In this document: positions 30,930-39,284 of the stretch, piece after piece
Position numbering within the stretch: position 1 is the first letter of the stretch
Layout of the letters: each line of letters starts with the position of its first letter
Assembly (NCBI RefSeq): GCF_000215935.2
Contig: NZ_AFNU02000002.1
Location: 124,001 to 188,000 of the forward strand
DNA: 64,000 nt
DNA from: Haloplasma contractile SSD-17B
GTDB taxonomy: Bacteria; Bacillota_I; Bacilli_A; Haloplasmatales; Haloplasmataceae
Direction: 5' to 3'
The notes under the pieces: generated by a model
The model's database searches: none
The model's input: the letters and a program-made list of their open reading frames with translations, nothing else
What the model was told of the DNA's origin: nothing
Position numbers and translations under genes: made by a program

Positions 30930-32093
30930 TTAAGCCGCTTTCATATTACGAGTTTTTACATCAAATACAACAGCTGCTACTAGTACTAAACCACGGATTA
31001 GATATTGCATACTGATTCCAACACCCATTAAGTTCATTCCGTTTGTAAGTGAAGCCATTACTAATGCACCAGTAATTGCACCAGTTACCTTACCAACTCC
31101 ACCGGCAGCACTTGCTCCACCAATAAATGCTGCAGCAATTGCATCTAACTCAAACATTTGTCCTGCACTAGGAGTTGCTGAATTTAAACGTGCCGTATAT
31201 AAAATTCCTGATAACGCAGCTAATGTTCCCATACTACCAAAAACAAAAAGCGTTATTTTTTCTACACTAATTCCAGATAAGTTTGCCGCTTCAGGGTTTC
31301 CACCAACCGCATAAATGTGGCGTCCTAATACCGTTAAATTCATCATAATATGATACACAATTACAACAATTAATACAATTAACATTGTAATTGATAACCC
31401 TTTATAAGTTGCTTGAAGCCAAGTGATTGAAAGAATAGCCAAACTCATAATCACTTGTTTTACTATAAAAATTTCTGTAGATGAATTTTCAAATCCATAT
31501 TGTTGTTTTTTCTGTCTACCGTATAAAGAAATTCCAATAAGAAGCAATACTCCTATTATACCAATTAATAATGTTAGTAAATGAACTTCTAAATTACCTA
31601 ATTTTAGGACTGCTAGTGAATCTATATAACCATTTCCAATTTTCTCTAAACCTTCATTTTTAGGGAGAATAGTTTCACTATTTGTAACCTCTAACAATAA
31701 ACCTCTAAATACTAGCATACCAGCTAATGTAGTTACAAATGCAGGTATTTTAACTTTAGCTACAAAGAATCCATTGATTAGTCCAATAGCTGCACCTAAA
31801 GCTAATGATAAAGGAATTACAAGTTTTAGTGACATCCCTGTATCTCTTAGGAGCAAAGCTGTTACCGCCCCTATAAATCCAGCTAGATATCCAACCGATA
31901 AATCAATGTGCCTTATAATTATAATAAGTGTCATACCTACACCCAGTACTGCAATGTATCCCGTTTGTAGGAATAAGTTATTAATATTCCTTGGTGACAT
32001 AAATAAACCCTGTGTCATAAAGTAGAAAAAGATCCAAATTGTTATTAAAGCAATATACATTCCATATTCTCTTATATTATTACGTATACTCAT
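30930..32093 (-). CDS. mmsB: Monosaccharide ABC transporter permease (MmsB/GguB/XylH type)
   Basis: A 387-residue permease of the ribose/xylose family (BPD_transp_2) with about ten to twelve helices and the motif HIDLSVGYLAGF in the first half. ARLNSATPSAGQMFELDAIAAA near the C-terminus is characteristic of the ChvE-GguAB group. It forms the channel for the binding protein at 33831 and the ATPase at 32106, which lies 12 bp upstream. AATAGGAGGTAAGACTA precedes the ATG. Homologous systems import glucose, galactose, arabinose or xylose; which of these is used here is not determined. Confidence 0.92.
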   Translation of the reverse strand: MSIRNNIREYGMYIALITIWIFFYFMTQGLFMSPRNINNLFLQTGYIAVLGVGMTLIIIIRHIDLSVGYLAGFIGAVTALLLRDTGMSLKLVIPLSLALGAAIGLINGFFVAKVKIPAFVTTLAGMLVFRGLLLEVTNSETILPKNEGLEKIGNGYIDSLAVLKLGNLEVHLLTLLIGIIGVLLLIGISLYGRQKKQQYGFENSSTEIFIVKQVIMSLAILSITWLQATYKGLSITMLIVLIVVIVYHIMMNLTVLGRHIYAVGGNPEAANLSGISVEKITLFVFGSMGTLAALSGILYTARLNSATPSAGQMFELDAIAAAFIGGASAAGGVGKVTGAITGALVMASLTNGMNLMGVGISMQYLIRGLVLVAAVVFDVKTRNMKAA

Positions 32094-32105: not shown

Positions 32106-33623
32106 CTATTTTGTCGCTAGTTCCATTATATTTTCTTGCGTCGCTTCTTCTATAGGGACTTCACCTGTAATTTTTCCGTCACTCATTACATATACCCGGT
32201 CGCTCATTCCTAAAACTTCCGGAAGTTCTGAAGAAATCATGATAATACTCATCCCGTTCTCAACCAATTTGTTCATGATGCTATAAATTTCAAACTTAGC
32301 ACCAACATCAATTCCACGTGTTGGTTCATCTAAAATTAATACATCTGGATTCGTAAATAACCATTTACCTAAAGCAACTTTCTGTTGGTTTCCACCACTT
32401 AGATTATTTACTTTTTGCTCTATTGATGGTGTTTTAATTTTAAAGGATTTTTTATAATACTCTGTAGTTTTAATTTCTTCATTTTTATTTAAGAATCCAT
32501 AGTTTGCTATACCTTCCAGGTTCGCCATTACTGTGTTTTCTTTTACATCATTAATCAAGACCAGACCATTTCCTTTGCGGTCTTCTGACACATACGCTAA
32601 TCCATTCTTTATAGAATGACTAGGGTTCTTTATCATAACTTCTTCGCCTTTGATAAAGCTTTTTCCTTCTACTTTGTATTTTTTAGGATTCTCAAATATA
32701 CTTAGTGCTAATTCTGTACGACCAGAACCCATTAAACCTGAAATTCCTATTATTTCACCTTTACGAACATTAAAGTTTGCGTTATCAATTATTTTACGAC
32801 CTGTTTGATCATAAACGTTCCAGTCTTTTACTTCTAGACTTATGTCTCCGATTTGTACATTTTTACGTTTTGGATAAATATCATTAATTTCTCGCCCAAC
32901 CATATGGGTAATGATTTTATTTTCAGTAATGTTTTCCTTTTCACGATCCATCGAGCAAATTGTTTTTCCATCACGAAGTACTGTTACTGTATCTGCAATA
33001 GCTAATACTTCTTTTAATTTATGACTAATCATGACTGATGTTACGCCTTGTTTCTTTAGCTCTACTAATAGTTCAAGTAAGTTTTCACTATCATCTTCAT
33101 TTAAAGCAGCTGTTGGCTCATCTAAAATTAATAGTTTAACATTCTTACTTAATGCTTTAGCGATCTCAACTAATTGTTGTTTACCAACACCTAGTTCCTT
33201 CACTAACGTATTTGGATCTATATTTAATTTAACTTTATCCAGTTGTTTTTTAGCTGCAGTAATTGTATCATTCCATCTCACAAAATTATGTGAATGCAGT
33301 TCATGGCCCAGATAAATATTTTCATATACTGACATTTCTGGTACTAACGCTAATTCCTGATAAATTATAGCAATTCCAGCCTCTTCACTATCTCGAATCC
33401 CAGTGAACTCTTGAACATTACCATTATATACTATATCTCCTGTATAATTACCATAGGGGTAAACACCACTTAATACCTTCATTAACGTTGATTTTCCGGC
33501 CCCGTTCTCACCAACCAAACAGTGTATTTCTCCTTCCTTTACTTTGAAGTTTACATTGTCTAGCGCTTTAACACCCGGAAATTCCTTAGTAATATTTTGC
33601 ATGTGTAATAATATATTTGACAT
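32106..33623 (-). CDS. mmsA: Monosaccharide ABC transporter ATP-binding protein (MmsA/GguA type)
   Basis: A 505-residue protein with two fused ABC domains, as in RbsA/XylG. The first has Walker A GENGAGKST (about residue 41), a degenerate signature LGVGKQQLVEIAKAL and Walker B LLILDEPTAAL. The second has a Walker A-like GLMGSGRTE, the signature LSGGNQQKVALGKW and DEPTRGIDVG. The asymmetry, with the second Walker A lacking its Lys, is normal for this family. AGGAGGTGACGTT precedes the start. It is the second gene of the operon with 33831 and 30930. Confidence 0.94.
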   Translation of the reverse strand: MSNILLHMQNITKEFPGVKALDNVNFKVKEGEIHCLVGENGAGKSTLMKVLSGVYPYGNYTGDIVYNGNVQEFTGIRDSEEAGIAIIYQELALVPEMSVYENIYLGHELHSHNFVRWNDTITAAKKQLDKVKLNIDPNTLVKELGVGKQQLVEIAKALSKNVKLLILDEPTAALNEDDSENLLELLVELKKQGVTSVMISHKLKEVLAIADTVTVLRDGKTICSMDREKENITENKIITHMVGREINDIYPKRKNVQIGDISLEVKDWNVYDQTGRKIIDNANFNVRKGEIIGISGLMGSGRTELALSIFENPKKYKVEGKSFIKGEEVMIKNPSHSIKNGLAYVSEDRKGNGLVLINDVKENTVMANLEGIANYGFLNKNEEIKTTEYYKKSFKIKTPSIEQKVNNLSGGNQQKVALGKWLFTNPDVLILDEPTRGIDVGAKFEIYSIMNKLVENGMSIIMISSELPEVLGMSDRVYVMSDGKITGEVPIEEATQENIMELATK

Positions 33624-33830: not shown

Positions 33831-34928
33831 TTACTCAGACCAAGTAAATTTGTCTGCATCATAGTAACCTGAATCAATTAAAATTTGTTGTACATTATCT
33901 GCATCAACAACATCAACAGGAACTTGTACTGCAGGTACATCAATTTCACCATTGTTATATGAACCGTCTGTAGAGATTGATTTACCTTCTAATAAATTAG
34001 TCGCCATATCAATTGCACCAGTAACTAATTTACGAACATCTTTAAAGACTGTCATGTCCTGTTTTCCATCGATAATGTATTGGATTGATGCTTCTTCTGC
34101 ATCCTGTCCTGTTATAACATAATCACTTATATTTGCATCGCCATTGAATACATCTGCAATAGAACGAGCAGTTCCATCATTTGGAGCTAAAACATAAGCA
34201 GTCGCATCCTCTTGATCAAAGTTTGTTAAGTTTGATTCTGCTAAGTTCTTAGCATCTCCAAAGTGCCAGTTTGTTGTAATAACGTTAATTACATCTGCTA
34301 ATTCAGCTCTTGTATGAGTAGCTGATGTTAAATCTACATTTCCATTATAATTTTGAACTTCGAATGCACCATTTTCAATGTAAGGCTTTAATACTTCTAA
34401 AGCACCTTCGAAGAATAAGAATGCATTGTTATCACTAGCAGCTCCAGCATATAGGAATAATGGTAATGAAGCATCAGCTACTAACGCATCTCCAGCTTGT
34501 TCTACTAAGTATTCTGCTTGTGCTGCACCAACTGATTTACTATCAAATGTAATGTAGTAATCTACTGCATCTGTATCCGTAACTAGACGGTCATAAGAGA
34601 TTACTTTAACACCATCGTTTTTAGCTGATTGTATAGCTGCGGCAGCTGCGGCACCATCATGAGGGGCAATAATTAATACATCAATCCCTTTTGAAAGAAG
34701 TGCTTCAACGTTTGATTTTTCTTTAGCTGAATCCCCTTGGCTAAATAAAATCTCAACACTATAATCTGTATCTTCTAAAGCAGCTCTAAATCGTGCTTCA
34801 TCCTGAACCCATCTTGGTTCTTCTTTAGTTGGTAATACAATCCCAATATTTACTTTCTCTGCTGTTTGACAAGCAGCTAATGTTGCAACAACAACAAATA
34901 CCGTAATAATAGATAATAATTTTTTCAT
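33831..34928 (-). CDS. chvE: Sugar-binding lipoprotein of the ChvE/MmsE type
   Basis: A 365-residue solute-binding protein of the periplasmic-binding 4 group, anchored by a lipobox (TLAAC, Cys19 from the chosen start). The second of two adjacent ATGs (34928) is chosen since it lies 8 nt from GGAG; the first is only 2 nt away. NIGIVLPTKEEPRWVQDEAR and VLAPNDGTARSIADVF are typical of ChvE, the multiple-monosaccharide receptor. It is first in the operon with 32106 and 30930. Its 190 nt leader carries a promoter under an operator-like palindrome and a GlcT-type antiterminator followed by a terminator (34981-35167). Confidence 0.92.
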   Translation of the reverse strand: MKKLLSIITVFVVVATLAACQTAEKVNIGIVLPTKEEPRWVQDEARFRAALEDTDYSVEILFSQGDSAKEKSNVEALLSKGIDVLIIAPHDGAAAAAAIQSAKNDGVKVISYDRLVTDTDAVDYYITFDSKSVGAAQAEYLVEQAGDALVADASLPLFLYAGAASDNNAFLFFEGALEVLKPYIENGAFEVQNYNGNVDLTSATHTRAELADVINVITTNWHFGDAKNLAESNLTNFDQEDATAYVLAPNDGTARSIADVFNGDANISDYVITGQDAEEASIQYIIDGKQDMTVFKDVRKLVTGAIDMATNLLEGKSISTDGSYNNGEIDVPAVQVPVDVVDADNVQQILIDSGYYDADKFTWSE

Positions 34929-34980
34929 TTTCATCTCTCCTTATTTCTATTTTATTTAATTTAAAACCAATATGACCAAA

Positions 34981-35100
34981 ACAAAAAGGCATGAATAACT
35001 GACAATAAGATTTAAAATTAGCTACAAAGGTAGCTTAAGCTATAAATATAGCTAGTTAAATCTCATTACCAAATTACTCATGCCTAATCGAATTAGTAAC
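34981..35100 (-). promoter_or_regulatory. GlcT-like RNA antiterminator (RAT) overlapping a branched terminator
   Basis: Minus strand 35100-35073 reads GTTACTAATTCGATTAGGCA then TGAGTAAT. Lower stem GTTA/TAAT, upper stem CTAAT/ATTAG with loop TCG, and an internal loop GCATGAG give the shape of a GlcT/LicT target. Its 3' part (GGCATGAGTAA, 35084-35074) can instead pair with TTATTCATGCC (34998-34988) before TTTTTGTTTT, forming a terminator. Enclosed are AGATTTAA/TTAAATCT and twin hairpins AGCTAT-N4-ATAGCT (35053-35038) and AGCTAC-N4-GTAGCT (35035-35020). Confidence 0.7.
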
Positions 35101-35127
35101 ACGTACTGGTTATTAAATTATGAACTA

Positions 35128-35167
35128 AGTATAGCACATGATTGAAACGCTTGCAAGAGCGTTTTCA
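35128..35167 (-). promoter_or_regulatory. Promoter and operator of the chvE operon
   Basis: Minus strand TTGCAA (35156-35151), 17 bp, TATACT (35133-35128). The -35 lies inside a palindrome (35142-35167) with arms AACGCT and AGCGTT, of the CcpA/LacI operator type. Confidence 0.7.
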
Positions 35168-35188: not shown

Positions 35189-37189
35189 CTATAATTCAAA
35201 TAATATTGAACCTTGTCCCACACAAATTCCTTTTGTTACATTAATCTTATCACTACTAAGTTTAGATATAATTATTGGTGTGATTGTACTCGTTATATCG
35301 TTTTTAATTGTAGCAAGATCTACCTCTAGTAAAAGTTGGCCTATTTCGACTGAATCTCCCTTATTAACATGTGCCGTAAAACCTTTCCCTCGCAGATGAA
35401 CTGTATCAATACCAAAGTGAATGAGTACTTCAGGACCTACTTTTGATTTAATTCCAATAGCATGTTTTGTTGGGTAAAATGAGGAAATTACTCCTTCAAC
35501 AGGAGAGACGATTTTACCATCTTTAGGAATTATAGCAAATCCATCCCCCATCATTCCACTCGAAAATATAGAATCAGGTACATCGGATAAACTAATAATT
35601 TCTCCTCCCATAGGCGATACAAAGAAATTTTTTTCTTTCTGAAATTTATTAAAATCCGTATTTTTCATCTCTATTGACTTTAACATTCTCGTCTTGATCT
35701 GCTCTGAATAGGTGCCGAATATTGCCTGAACACTATCCCCTATAATTAACACTCCGGAAGCTCCTAATTGTTTTAATTGGTCTTTTTTCACCTTGCTTAC
35801 TTCATAGACTTGTATCCGTAGTCGCGTGATGCATGAATCTAAACTTTTAATGTTTTTTTCTCCACCAATAGCGTCTATAATACTCTCTACCATCTCATCT
35901 TTATTAATACTTATGACTGTCGTTTCATTTCCTTTCTCATCATCCGTTTCTCGACCCGGTGTCTTGATATCAAATACCCGAATAGCAAATCGAAATCCAA
36001 AATAATAGATTATAGCAAAAAATAGACCAACTACTAAGACTAACCACCAACTCGTCCTATTTTGAATCACACCAAATAAAACAAAGTCAATTAAACCGCC
36101 GGAGAATGTCATTCCAATCTTAACATTTAACATATGCATAAGCATAAAGGATAATCCTGCAAATAAGACATGAACAAAAAATAAGATTGGTGCTACAAAC
36201 AGAAATGTAAATTCAATAGGCTCAGTAATACCCGTTAAAAACGAGGTCAAAGCACCAGAAATCATTAATCCGCCTACTAGTTTTTTCTTTTCCTTTCGTG
36301 CTTCGTGGTACATCGCAAGGGCCGCCGCAGGTAGCCCAAACATCATAAAAGGGTATTTACCTGTCATGAAGGTTCCTGCTGTAATTGGTACACCATCTAC
36401 CAATTGTTCAAAAAAGATTCGTTGATCCCCTCTAATGACTTCCCCAGCATTATTAACATATTCCCCAAACTCAAACCAAAAAGGCGAATAAAAAATATGA
36501 TGAAGACCGAATGGTATAAGAGCACGTTCAAACACTCCAAAAATAAAGGCAGATAGTGTTAAGTTGTAATTTACTAGATTTCTTGAAAACAAATCAAGAC
36601 CAGTTTGTACACTAGGCCATATAAATGACATGAAGATTCCTAATATTAAACAGGCTCCTGCAGTCACTATCGGTACAAATCGTTTACCTGCGAAAAACCC
36701 TAAGTATGGTGGCAATTTTATATCATAAAAACGATTGAACATGGTTGCAGCTACTCCACCAATAATTATGCCACCTAGCACACCAGTTTGTAAGGTTGGT
36801 ATTCCTAATGCCAAAATATAACTTGGATCATCTTGTTCTAATACCATCTCAATTGTTATTCCTGAGAAGATAGAAATCGTCTGATTCATAATCAGGTATC
36901 CAACAATTGCTGCTAATGCAGCAACGCCACTTCCTCCTGTGAGACCAACTGCTACGCCGACTGCAAATAATAATGGTAAATTCTCAAAAATAATCTGTCC
37001 TGATTTTTTCATTACCTCTGCAAACAGTTGAATTTGCTCATTTTCCAAAAATGGAAGTATATTGATAATATGCTCTTCCTGTATTGATGAGCCAACTCCG
37101 AGAAGAATTCCTGCTACAGGTAAGATTGCAACTGGTAACATGAGTGCTTTTCCAACTTTTTGAAACCAGCCAAACATTTTTTTAAACAT
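35189..37189 (-). CDS. ptsG: Glucose-type PTS transporter EIICBA
   Basis: A 666-residue fused permease. The EIIC domain (about 1-400, roughly ten helices, opening FGWFQKVGKALMLPVAILPV) is followed by EIIB (about 430-520, with the phospho-Cys in LDSCITRLR) and EIIA (about 540-666, with the phospho-His in LIHFGIDTVHL). Domain order and length match Bacillus PtsG; N-acetylglucosamine permeases (NagE) are similar, so glucose is likely but not certain. The ATG at 37189 follows AGGTGATTAAA; a GTG three codons earlier overlaps that site. It is co-oriented with the antiterminator gene 37313. A terminator-like hairpin lies in the gap. Confidence 0.92.
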   Translation of the reverse strand: MFKKMFGWFQKVGKALMLPVAILPVAGILLGVGSSIQEEHIINILPFLENEQIQLFAEVMKKSGQIIFENLPLLFAVGVAVGLTGGSGVAALAAIVGYLIMNQTISIFSGITIEMVLEQDDPSYILALGIPTLQTGVLGGIIIGGVAATMFNRFYDIKLPPYLGFFAGKRFVPIVTAGACLILGIFMSFIWPSVQTGLDLFSRNLVNYNLTLSAFIFGVFERALIPFGLHHIFYSPFWFEFGEYVNNAGEVIRGDQRIFFEQLVDGVPITAGTFMTGKYPFMMFGLPAAALAMYHEARKEKKKLVGGLMISGALTSFLTGITEPIEFTFLFVAPILFFVHVLFAGLSFMLMHMLNVKIGMTFSGGLIDFVLFGVIQNRTSWWLVLVVGLFFAIIYYFGFRFAIRVFDIKTPGRETDDEKGNETTVISINKDEMVESIIDAIGGEKNIKSLDSCITRLRIQVYEVSKVKKDQLKQLGASGVLIIGDSVQAIFGTYSEQIKTRMLKSIEMKNTDFNKFQKEKNFFVSPMGGEIISLSDVPDSIFSSGMMGDGFAIIPKDGKIVSPVEGVISSFYPTKHAIGIKSKVGPEVLIHFGIDTVHLRGKGFTAHVNKGDSVEIGQLLLEVDLATIKNDITSTITPIIISKLSSDKINVTKGICVGQGSILFEL

Positions 37190-37251
37190 TTTAATCACCT
37201 AAGTTTCTAAATTATTCGTGTTCTTGATACCGCGGTAAATTTTTTGATTTT

Positions 37252-37296
37252 CCTATAAATAAAAAAGCAATGAGAAAACGTATGTTTCCCCATGCT
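37252..37296 (-). terminator. Terminator between glcT and the PTS gene
   Basis: Minus strand AGCATGGGGAAAC and GTTTTCTCATTGCT pair with several wobble positions, followed by TTTTTTATTTAT. This is where Bacillus ptsG has its antitermination site, but I do not see a clear RAT overlapping it. Confidence 0.65.
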
Positions 37297-37312: not shown

Positions 37313-38152
37313 CTACTTGAAGTTTAATTTCGATATATGGAGTGCAATGTAGCCAATTTCACTATCAGGCACTGGTTTTCCAAGTTCTTTTTCTATAATC
37401 ATACCAATAGTCTTTGATAGCGACACTTCATATGGTAATTCAATCATAATCTTATCTAAAAATATGTTTTCTAGTGTTTGTTCGTTTAAAACACGATCAA
37501 ACACTCCTTGTAAGTGAATTACAAAACGAGAATACATAAATGAATAATCATCGAAAGAAATCTTTAATTTATCCTCAACAAATTTAGTAAGATTGCTAAT
37601 TAACTTTGTAAATGTCATTGCTTTACTTTTACTACTGTTACTTCTACCACCATGAATGTGAAGAGCAATAAATCCAATCTCAGCAACAGGTATATTAATG
37701 TCTATTGTTGAACTTATATACGTTACTGCTTTTTCAGCAATATCATACTCTTTTGGATACAAAAATTTTGTTTCATTTAAGAATGGATTAACAATTTCTA
37801 TCCCTTCATTCAACCGTTTAATCGCATAGTTTATGTGATCGATTAAACCGATATGAATATTAGGATTTAATGATTCTCCTAATTCTTCAGATGCCATAAT
37901 GATAATATCTTCTGTAATTTCGATCACTCGAGGATCCACTTGTGCAAAAAATTGTGCTTCATCACGATCATTAAGTGCATCCAATGAAATGAATTTATCT
38001 TCGATTACATCTTTGTTAGAAATAACTTGCCCCTTTTTCTTTGCAAATCCAATCCCCTTTCCAACAAGAATAGATTTTGCATCACCTTCCCTAACTAGTA
38101 CCACATTATTACTTAAAACTTTTAGTATCTCATATCCTTTGATGGCAACCAC
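37313..38152 (-). CDS. glcT: Transcription antiterminator of the BglG/GlcT family
   Basis: A 279-residue protein with an RNA-binding CAT domain (about 1-60, NNVVLVREG and VGKGIGFAKKKG), then two PTS-regulation domains (PRD1 about 65-170, PRD2 about 175-279) carrying the conserved His residues (LIDHINYAIKR, ALHIHGG, RFVIHLQG, ALHISKL). VGKGIGFAKKKG is closer to GlcT than to LicT or SacY. It should bind a RAT hairpin and allow read-through when the PTS substrate is present. The start is uncertain: the GTG at 38152 lies within its own AAAGAGGTG. It precedes the PTS gene, but the clearest RAT is in front of chvE. Confidence 0.88.
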   Translation of the reverse strand: MVAIKGYEILKVLSNNVVLVREGDAKSILVGKGIGFAKKKGQVISNKDVIEDKFISLDALNDRDEAQFFAQVDPRVIEITEDIIIMASEELGESLNPNIHIGLIDHINYAIKRLNEGIEIVNPFLNETKFLYPKEYDIAEKAVTYISSTIDINIPVAEIGFIALHIHGGRSNSSKSKAMTFTKLISNLTKFVEDKLKISFDDYSFMYSRFVIHLQGVFDRVLNEQTLENIFLDKIMIELPYEVSLSKTIGMIIEKELGKPVPDSEIGYIALHISKLNFK

Positions 38153-38225: not shown

Positions 38226-39284
38226 TCATAAATTGAACGTTTTACCTTCTTCTGAACTCTTTATGGCTAATTCAATTATTTTAATCGTGGTTCTGGCTTG
38301 TAGAGGTGTAACATATGGTTCACAATTCTTATTAATTGCATTGTAAACATCTTTAAAATAATCACGATAATCTCCCGCTAAACTTGTTACTTTACCTCTA
38401 ACCGCTAACCCATTTAGCTCAGTATTTATAGTCCCGTGAATTGAAACAGGTTCTTGACCCCAATTTGTACTATTTTTAGGAACCTTTCCATCTCTTAAAT
38501 CTCGTTCTTGTATGTCCATACCATACTTGACAAATGAACCATTTTCTCCGAGCAAAATATACTTTGGTAATGATTCTTTTACAAGCATACCTGCTTTTAG
38601 TGTAACCTTCAATCGGTCATAATATAAAATTATCTCAAAATAATCATCTACATCACTACAGCTACGTTGTTTACGTACATCAGCAAATATTTTTTGAGGT
38701 TCCCCAAAAAGAACAAGCGCTTGATCGATTAAATGAGGTCCTAAATCATATAGAATCCCTGCTCCTGGTTCATCCTTTTCTTTCCAAGCATTAGGCTTTA
38801 GGTGATTTCTAAATCGATCAAAGTGCACCTCATATTCCACTAGTTTTCCTAACAATCCTTGTTCAATTATGTGTTTTACCGTTTTAAAGTCACTGTCATA
38901 TCGTCTATTCTGAAATACAGTCAAGATCCTATTGTATTCTTTCGATAAGCGTATTAAGTCATCTGCTTCATCAGTTGTAACAGTGAATGGTTTTTCAATT
39001 AACACATGTTTTCCACTCTTTAAAGCCTGTTTCGCAAAGGAATAATGAAGTTTATTAGGCGTCGTGATGATGACTAGGTCAATTGTCTGATCGTTCAAGA
39101 TTAGTTCTAAATCCTTTACAACTTCCGTTCCCTCATAATGTTTTGCTATATAGTTCTTTGATCCTTCATTTCTTGTTAGTATTTTTGACAATTTAAATTC
39201 GTCAAGTTCTGATATAAAAGGGGCGTGAAATACGCGGCCTGATAGACCAAATCCGATAATTGCTGTATTTAATATATGATTCAT
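38226..39284 (-). CDS. Gfo/Idh/MocA family oxidoreductase
   Basis: A 352-residue NAD(P)-dependent oxidoreductase. The N-terminal Rossmann domain (about 1-120) starts NTAIIGFGLSGRVFHAPFI, and EKPFTVT carries the catalytic-type Lys of the family. The C-terminal domain (about 130-340) contains GAGILYDLGPHLIDQAL with the usual Asp/His. GFGLSGRVFHAPF is typical of the YvaA/scyllo-inositol dehydrogenase-like subgroup. The substrate is unknown; a sugar or inositol is plausible. AAAGGAATGACATAA precedes the start. It lies upstream of glcT with a 73 bp gap but no visible terminator, so read-through into glcT is possible. Confidence 0.88.
   Translation of the reverse strand: MNHILNTAIIGFGLSGRVFHAPFISELDEFKLSKILTRNEGSKNYIAKHYEGTEVVKDLELILNDQTIDLVIITTPNKLHYSFAKQALKSGKHVLIEKPFTVTTDEADDLIRLSKEYNRILTVFQNRRYDSDFKTVKHIIEQGLLGKLVEYEVHFDRFRNHLKPNAWKEKDEPGAGILYDLGPHLIDQALVLFGEPQKIFADVRKQRSCSDVDDYFEIILYYDRLKVTLKAGMLVKESLPKYILLGENGSFVKYGMDIQERDLRDGKVPKNSTNWGQEPVSIHGTINTELNGLAVRGKVTSLAGDYRDYFKDVYNAINKNCEPYVTPLQARTTIKIIELAIKSSEEGKTFNL

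Follow-up and report, generated by a model that had tools for sequence, protein, structure and literature searches.

Which operon does a glucose-type antiterminator serve when the RNA element that it is expected to bind precedes the genes of a sugar ABC importer? GlcT is the textbook one-target switch, through which an active glucose PTS induces its own gene. In Bacillus subtilis, GlcT is inactivated when phosphorylated EII-Glc transfers phosphate to its PRD1; import of glucose reverses this, and GlcT binds its RNA antiterminator, the RAT (PMC12445079, PMC7430163). The window, a stretch of 64,000 nucleotides of Haloplasma contractile SSD-17B, carries a GlcT-type RAT in the 254-bp leader between ptsG and a chvE-gguAB operon, and on the sequence evidence we consider it likely (probability about 0.87) that this operon is controlled by GlcT-dependent antitermination. 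The locus reads on the minus strand, in this order:

38226-39284, minus strand: Gfo/Idh/MocA oxidoreductase gene, upstream of glcT
37313-38152, minus strand: glcT, GlcT-like PRD antiterminator with a CAT RNA-binding domain and two PRDs (Pfam CAT_RBD, PRD x2)
37270-37293, minus strand: hairpin resembling a terminator, in the glcT-ptsG gap, which has no RAT
35189-37198, minus strand: ptsG, glucose PTS EIICBA (TIGR02002, 774.6 bits, cut-off 591.8), likely start ATG at 37189
33831-34934, minus strand: chvE, sugar-binding lipoprotein of an ABC importer (Peripla_BP_4), start at 34934 or 34928
32106-33623, minus strand: gguA, ABC ATPase (NCBIfam GguA, 758.5 of 810 bits, below cut-off)
30930-32093, minus strand: gguB, ABC permease (NCBIfam GguB, 437 of 450 bits, below cut-off)

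The best NCBIfam match of the glcT product is GlcT, at 263.7 bits versus an equivalog cut-off of 320 that it does not reach, and its top PDB match is 3rio, the PtsGHI operon antiterminator. A whole-genome domain search found CAT_RBD in this protein alone, which makes it the sole CAT-domain antiterminator of the genome, and its PRD histidines are conserved in an alignment with other GlcTs. The EIIB Cys motif and the EIIA His motif of PtsG are both intact, and HPr is encoded in the same genome (another HPr-like protein with a weaker match of 57.7 bits is encoded at G000:C4:38441-38653 and is possibly Crh-like). ChvE, GguA and GguB have the ChvE-GguAB multiple-monosaccharide importer as their top families, although all three miss the equivalog cut-offs (ChvE with 268 of 460 bits); against PDB, ChvE matched 4rxu with 420 bits and the ChvE structure 3urm with 173 bits. 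The antiterminator gene had been placed 2.4 kb upstream in an earlier note on this DNA; it does lie upstream, but glcT ends 2.2 kb from the RAT, with ptsG in between.

The leader of chvE contains the following elements:

35142-35156, minus strand: cre-like site TTGCAAGCGTTTCAA over the -35 box, one mismatch to WTGNAANCGNWNNCW
35128-35156, minus strand: sigma-A-type promoter TTGCAA-N17-TATACT, read from the sequence and aligned with TTGAAA-N17-TATACT/TATTAT in two other genera
35076-35104, minus strand: GlcT-type RAT of 29 nt, ACGTGTTACTAATTCGATTAGGCATGAGT, identified by covariance model, alignment and covariation
34978-35084, minus strand: intrinsic terminator, hairpin 35084-34988 followed by a T tract at 34987-34978, its 5' arm being the 3' half of the RAT

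A GlcT/LicT RAT-like sequence (GTTACTAATTCGATTAGGCATGAG, 35100-35077, minus strand) had already been noticed here, together with the promoter (35156-35128, minus strand), which is present as described. Because a first covariance model (R1) included the RAT of the window and was circular, it was replaced for independent scoring by R2, built on 12 RATs that accompany PTS genes in other bacteria, with the window RAT and those of its family excluded. R2 identified the element as GlcT-type with 48.7 bits (E = 1.6e-11, 91,748 bases searched). An Rfam scan of the window at gathering scores returned two tRNAs only and no match to a RAT family. The commonest form among the 119 RAT loci listed from the survey described below is ACGTGTTACTGAT-N-CGATCAGGCATGAGT, and a leading ACG, which lies outside the search pattern, is conserved in 111-118 of these 119 loci and is also found in the window RAT. 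Close resemblance to the RAT of Bacillus ptsG had been proposed, and it holds: the window RAT departs from the Bacillus consensus in two positions only (G to A, C to U). These are partners in the stem and form one compensated base pair (G-C to A-U).

The fold of the RAT taken alone is weak and uninformative (+0.9 kcal/mol, z = -0.1 versus shuffles), so the case for the RAT rests on homology and covariation; the weak fold agrees with the published instability of the ptsG RAT before GlcT binding (PMC4267651). In an alignment of 25 RATs, including those of Clostridia, 98.7% of the cells are in standard pairs, and three pairs show compensatory changes, with both sides altered in eight cells. The covariation score was reached by none of 500 shuffles and was destroyed when the partner column was slid by one; covariation of the stems, the lack of which the earlier note had named as grounds for dismissal, was thus found. 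A chance match was rejected on the E value and on this covariation test.

The terminator is formed by GGCATGAGTAA (from 35084), which pairs with TTATTCATGCC (ending at 34988) with one G-U pair and is followed by TTTTTGTTTT. Its hairpin has a minimum free energy of -43.7 kcal/mol versus -19.3 +/- 3.2 for shuffles (z = -7.6). The 11-bp terminator stem originally described does share its 5' arm with the 3' part of the RAT, but the hairpin is longer than 11 bp. As the 5' arm starts inside the RAT, the two folds are mutually exclusive, as had been stated. If, instead, chvE were mainly transcribed from a start 3' of the RAT, the RAT and terminator would only insulate it from read-through out of ptsG. 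A promoter-like site with 9 of 12 matches at 35072-35045 would fit such a start, but it sits within the terminator stem, such matches are about as frequent as after shuffling (16 versus 18.7 expected), and it is the promoter 5' of the RAT that is conserved in three genera; we regard this alternative as highly improbable. Transcription would then begin at the upstream promoter, about 17 nt 5' of the RAT, and antitermination would decide whether it proceeds into chvE.

Between ptsG and chvE, two more genera of the family (G006 and G005) have the same leader, composed of cre-like site, promoter, RAT and terminator, so that the layout glcT-ptsG-leader-chvE-gguAB is conserved in three genera, represented by three genomes; the search for this leader in relatives, which had been suggested as a check, was thereby positive. 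R2 scored the RAT of G006 at 48.7 bits, the same as that of the window, and the RAT of G005 at 28.6 bits (E = 1.1e-5). In each genus the cre-like site has one mismatch to the cre consensus and takes the matching position relative to the promoter, and ATTCATGCCTTTT of the terminator is invariant. The RAT of G005, CTA-TTAAAT-TAG, corresponds to the CTG-TTAAAT-CAG of clostridial EIIA-glcT leaders as its A-U version; the loop of the G005 RAT is different and its pairing is preserved.

No RAT was found in the three genomes between glcT and ptsG, where the canonical GlcT-ptsG operon has it. In G006 and G005 only 22 and 8 bp lie between the two genes, which leaves no space for a RAT and terminator before ptsG; in the window the gap is 114 bp, and two models run with filters off and E up to 10 returned no RAT in it. 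The claim that the RAT stands before the ABC operon instead of the PTS gene thus applies to all three genomes, and no second credible RAT was present among the candidates scored in them with the RAT model. As to the hairpin at 37270-37293, escape through a promoter of ptsG itself and partial read-through are both conceivable.

Since RATs lie between two ptsG-like genes in Anaerosolibacter and Geosporobacter (L050, L139), an ancestral array glcT-ptsG1-RAT-ptsG2 is plausible, from which ptsG2 might have been lost and behind which chvE-gguAB might have landed, leaving the RAT and its terminator as a relic that would now simply terminate transcription or contribute little to regulation. Against this, three genera have kept the RAT with its terminator overlap, the promoter and the cre-like site despite a diverged middle of the terminator hairpin, the variant RAT of G005 still pairs with a different loop, and glcT is retained with its functional residues in genomes in which no other RAT was found among the candidates scored. 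We therefore consider a relic unlikely and a working RAT under GlcT control the better reading.

Within the family, glcT, chvE and the RAT are all present in three of the eight genomes and all absent in the other five. In a genome of another family (G037), chvE is present, glcT is absent and no RAT precedes chvE. In the GlcT tree, the GlcT of the family falls, with 98/97 support, inside a clade of clostridial GlcTs encoded next to RAT-ptsG and apart from other paralogues of the BglG family; because of this nesting, control of chvE by GlcT probably arose from that of ptsG. The same placement bears on the signal. The RAT might be functional with an antiterminator that senses another sugar or PTS permease, with a specificity like that of NagY or LicT; the GlcT model score below its cut-off and the resemblance of the G005 RAT to the published NagY RAT (TTTCATGTGACTAGATAATACTAGGCATGGAA, PMC12502629) would suit this. 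However, glcT adjoins a gene for a glucose-class EIICBA that scores above its curated cut-off, its product nests among the GlcTs beside RAT-ptsG, and the lower arm of the window RAT is GAGU, as in GlcT-type RATs, and not GGAA, the end of the NagY RAT. A signal other than glucose is in our view slightly less probable even than a relic, and we retain glucose as the presumed signal.

To see what GlcT-type RATs precede elsewhere, a degenerate pattern was scanned in named bacterial and archaeal genomes, which gave at least 119 loci. Among the 119 loci listed, the first downstream gene is ptsG in 101, a mannose-class EII gene (EIIAB) in 8 and ptsHI in 7 (3 are cut off), and no ABC importer stands behind the RAT in any of the 116 readable ones. 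The RATs found in 291 clostridial genomes precede ptsG or ptsG-like, mannose-class PTS or EIIA-glcT genes, likewise without an ABC importer behind them. Conversely, none of 32 ChvE-like loci (30 from the Bacillus-containing class and 2 from the class of the window) has a RAT in front; those nearest to the locus of the window mostly have a cre-like site.

The presence of the PRD histidines, of the EIIB Cys and EIIA His motifs and of HPr leads us to propose glucose-induced read-through into chvE-gguAB. When glucose is absent, phosphorylated PtsG would phosphorylate GlcT, the RAT would fail to form, and the long hairpin would stop transcription before chvE. When glucose is imported by PtsG, GlcT would be dephosphorylated and would bind and stabilise the RAT; with the 5' arm of the terminator trapped, RNA polymerase would continue into the genes of the ABC importer, which would take up a sugar. 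Transcripts reading through from glcT-ptsG would be gated by the same switch. Glucose sensed via a PTS permease would thus induce a sugar ABC importer, and PTS-sensed glucose probably switches on a different transport system in H. contractile and the two related genera.

The cre-like site, which lies over the -35 box of the promoter in all three genera, suggests added repression by CcpA that would confine expression to moderate glucose, and CcpA probably restrains the promoter in the presence of ample sugar; this is the weaker part of the proposal, as glucose induction and CcpA repression at one promoter are partly contradictory. A more far-reaching version is possible, although we rather doubt it: GlcT may no longer control ptsG, PtsG may be made independently and serve chiefly as the glucose sensor that triggers the ABC importer, and CcpA may confine expression to low or intermediate glucose. 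If this were true, a PTS permease would be used as the trigger for a non-PTS importer.

Control of non-PTS genes by antiterminators of this family is already known (SacY-sacB, NagY-hylA). The system described here resembles GlcT/RAT of B. subtilis ptsGHI (gswA) in the sequence and fold of the RAT, in its overlap with the terminator and in a GlcT-like gene adjoining a glucose permease gene, and it differs in having an ABC importer operon as its target, in the place of ptsG, upstream of the RAT, and in the cre-like site at the promoter. It shares with the RATs before mannose-class PTS genes or ptsHI of Bacillaceae (8 and 7 among the 119 loci listed) a target other than ptsG, but their targets are still PTS genes. 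The chvE operons of Bacillus-class genomes (L182-L189), whose ChvE proteins are about 55-63% identical, mostly have a clear upstream cre-like site (e.g., TGATAGCGCTTACA or TGATAGCGCTTTCA); unlike the window, all of them are without a RAT. The nearest parallel in target class is NagY of Enterococcus faecalis, of which direct targets reported in 2025 include the ABC sugar transporter transcripts ef1232 and ef2223-ef2221 (PMC12502629), most NagY targets having putative RATs (PMC9981650, PMC12502629). NagY belongs to the same antiterminator family and has the canonical overlap of RAT and terminator, but its signal is N-acetylglucosamine and its broad regulon has putative motifs, whereas here there is one RAT per genome in a conserved locus. 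The open-access literature searched yielded no report of GlcT control of an ABC importer.

The wiring had been called new; this stands for GlcT among the loci sampled, but not at the level of the family, in which NagY acting on ABC sugar genes is a precedent (PMC12502629). The mechanism is textbook, and the RNA and the type of regulator are known; the target class is new for GlcT. With RAT and regulator type moved to a non-PTS importer, the phosphorylation state of the PTS would be linked to ABC sugar uptake, and a 29-nt RNA element would appear to be rewirable to a new operon, in a compact case (one regulator and one target per genome) that is directly testable.

Some further arrangements were noted among the other RAT loci. 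In Bacillaceae, mannose-class PTS genes (EIIA-man/PTSIIB_sorb, EII-Sor) lie behind canonical RATs in L030, L045, L048, L066, L068, L072, L111 and L142, and in Clostridia (L219-L221) canonical GlcT-type RATs likewise precede mannose-class PTS genes; since glcT mostly does not adjoin them, a second PTS may be under GlcT control in trans. Downstream of one of these operons, in Amphibacillus (L030:3365-4381), there is a Gfo/Idh/MocA oxidoreductase gene that looks similar to the one upstream of glcT in the window. In L029, L039, L043, L073, L093, L097 and L138, ptsHI directly follows a canonical GlcT-type RAT, with no ptsG in between. A GlcT-type RAT in G194 (L168:1501-1528) lies shortly 5' of a gene for a lipoprotein of the endonuclease/exonuclease/phosphatase family, a possible non-PTS target, and a ptsG-like EIIC gene is divergent from this RAT. 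In L026, L223 and L224, the RAT is followed by a free-standing EIIA-Glc gene and then by a glcT-like gene, an order that suggests autoregulation of the antiterminator.
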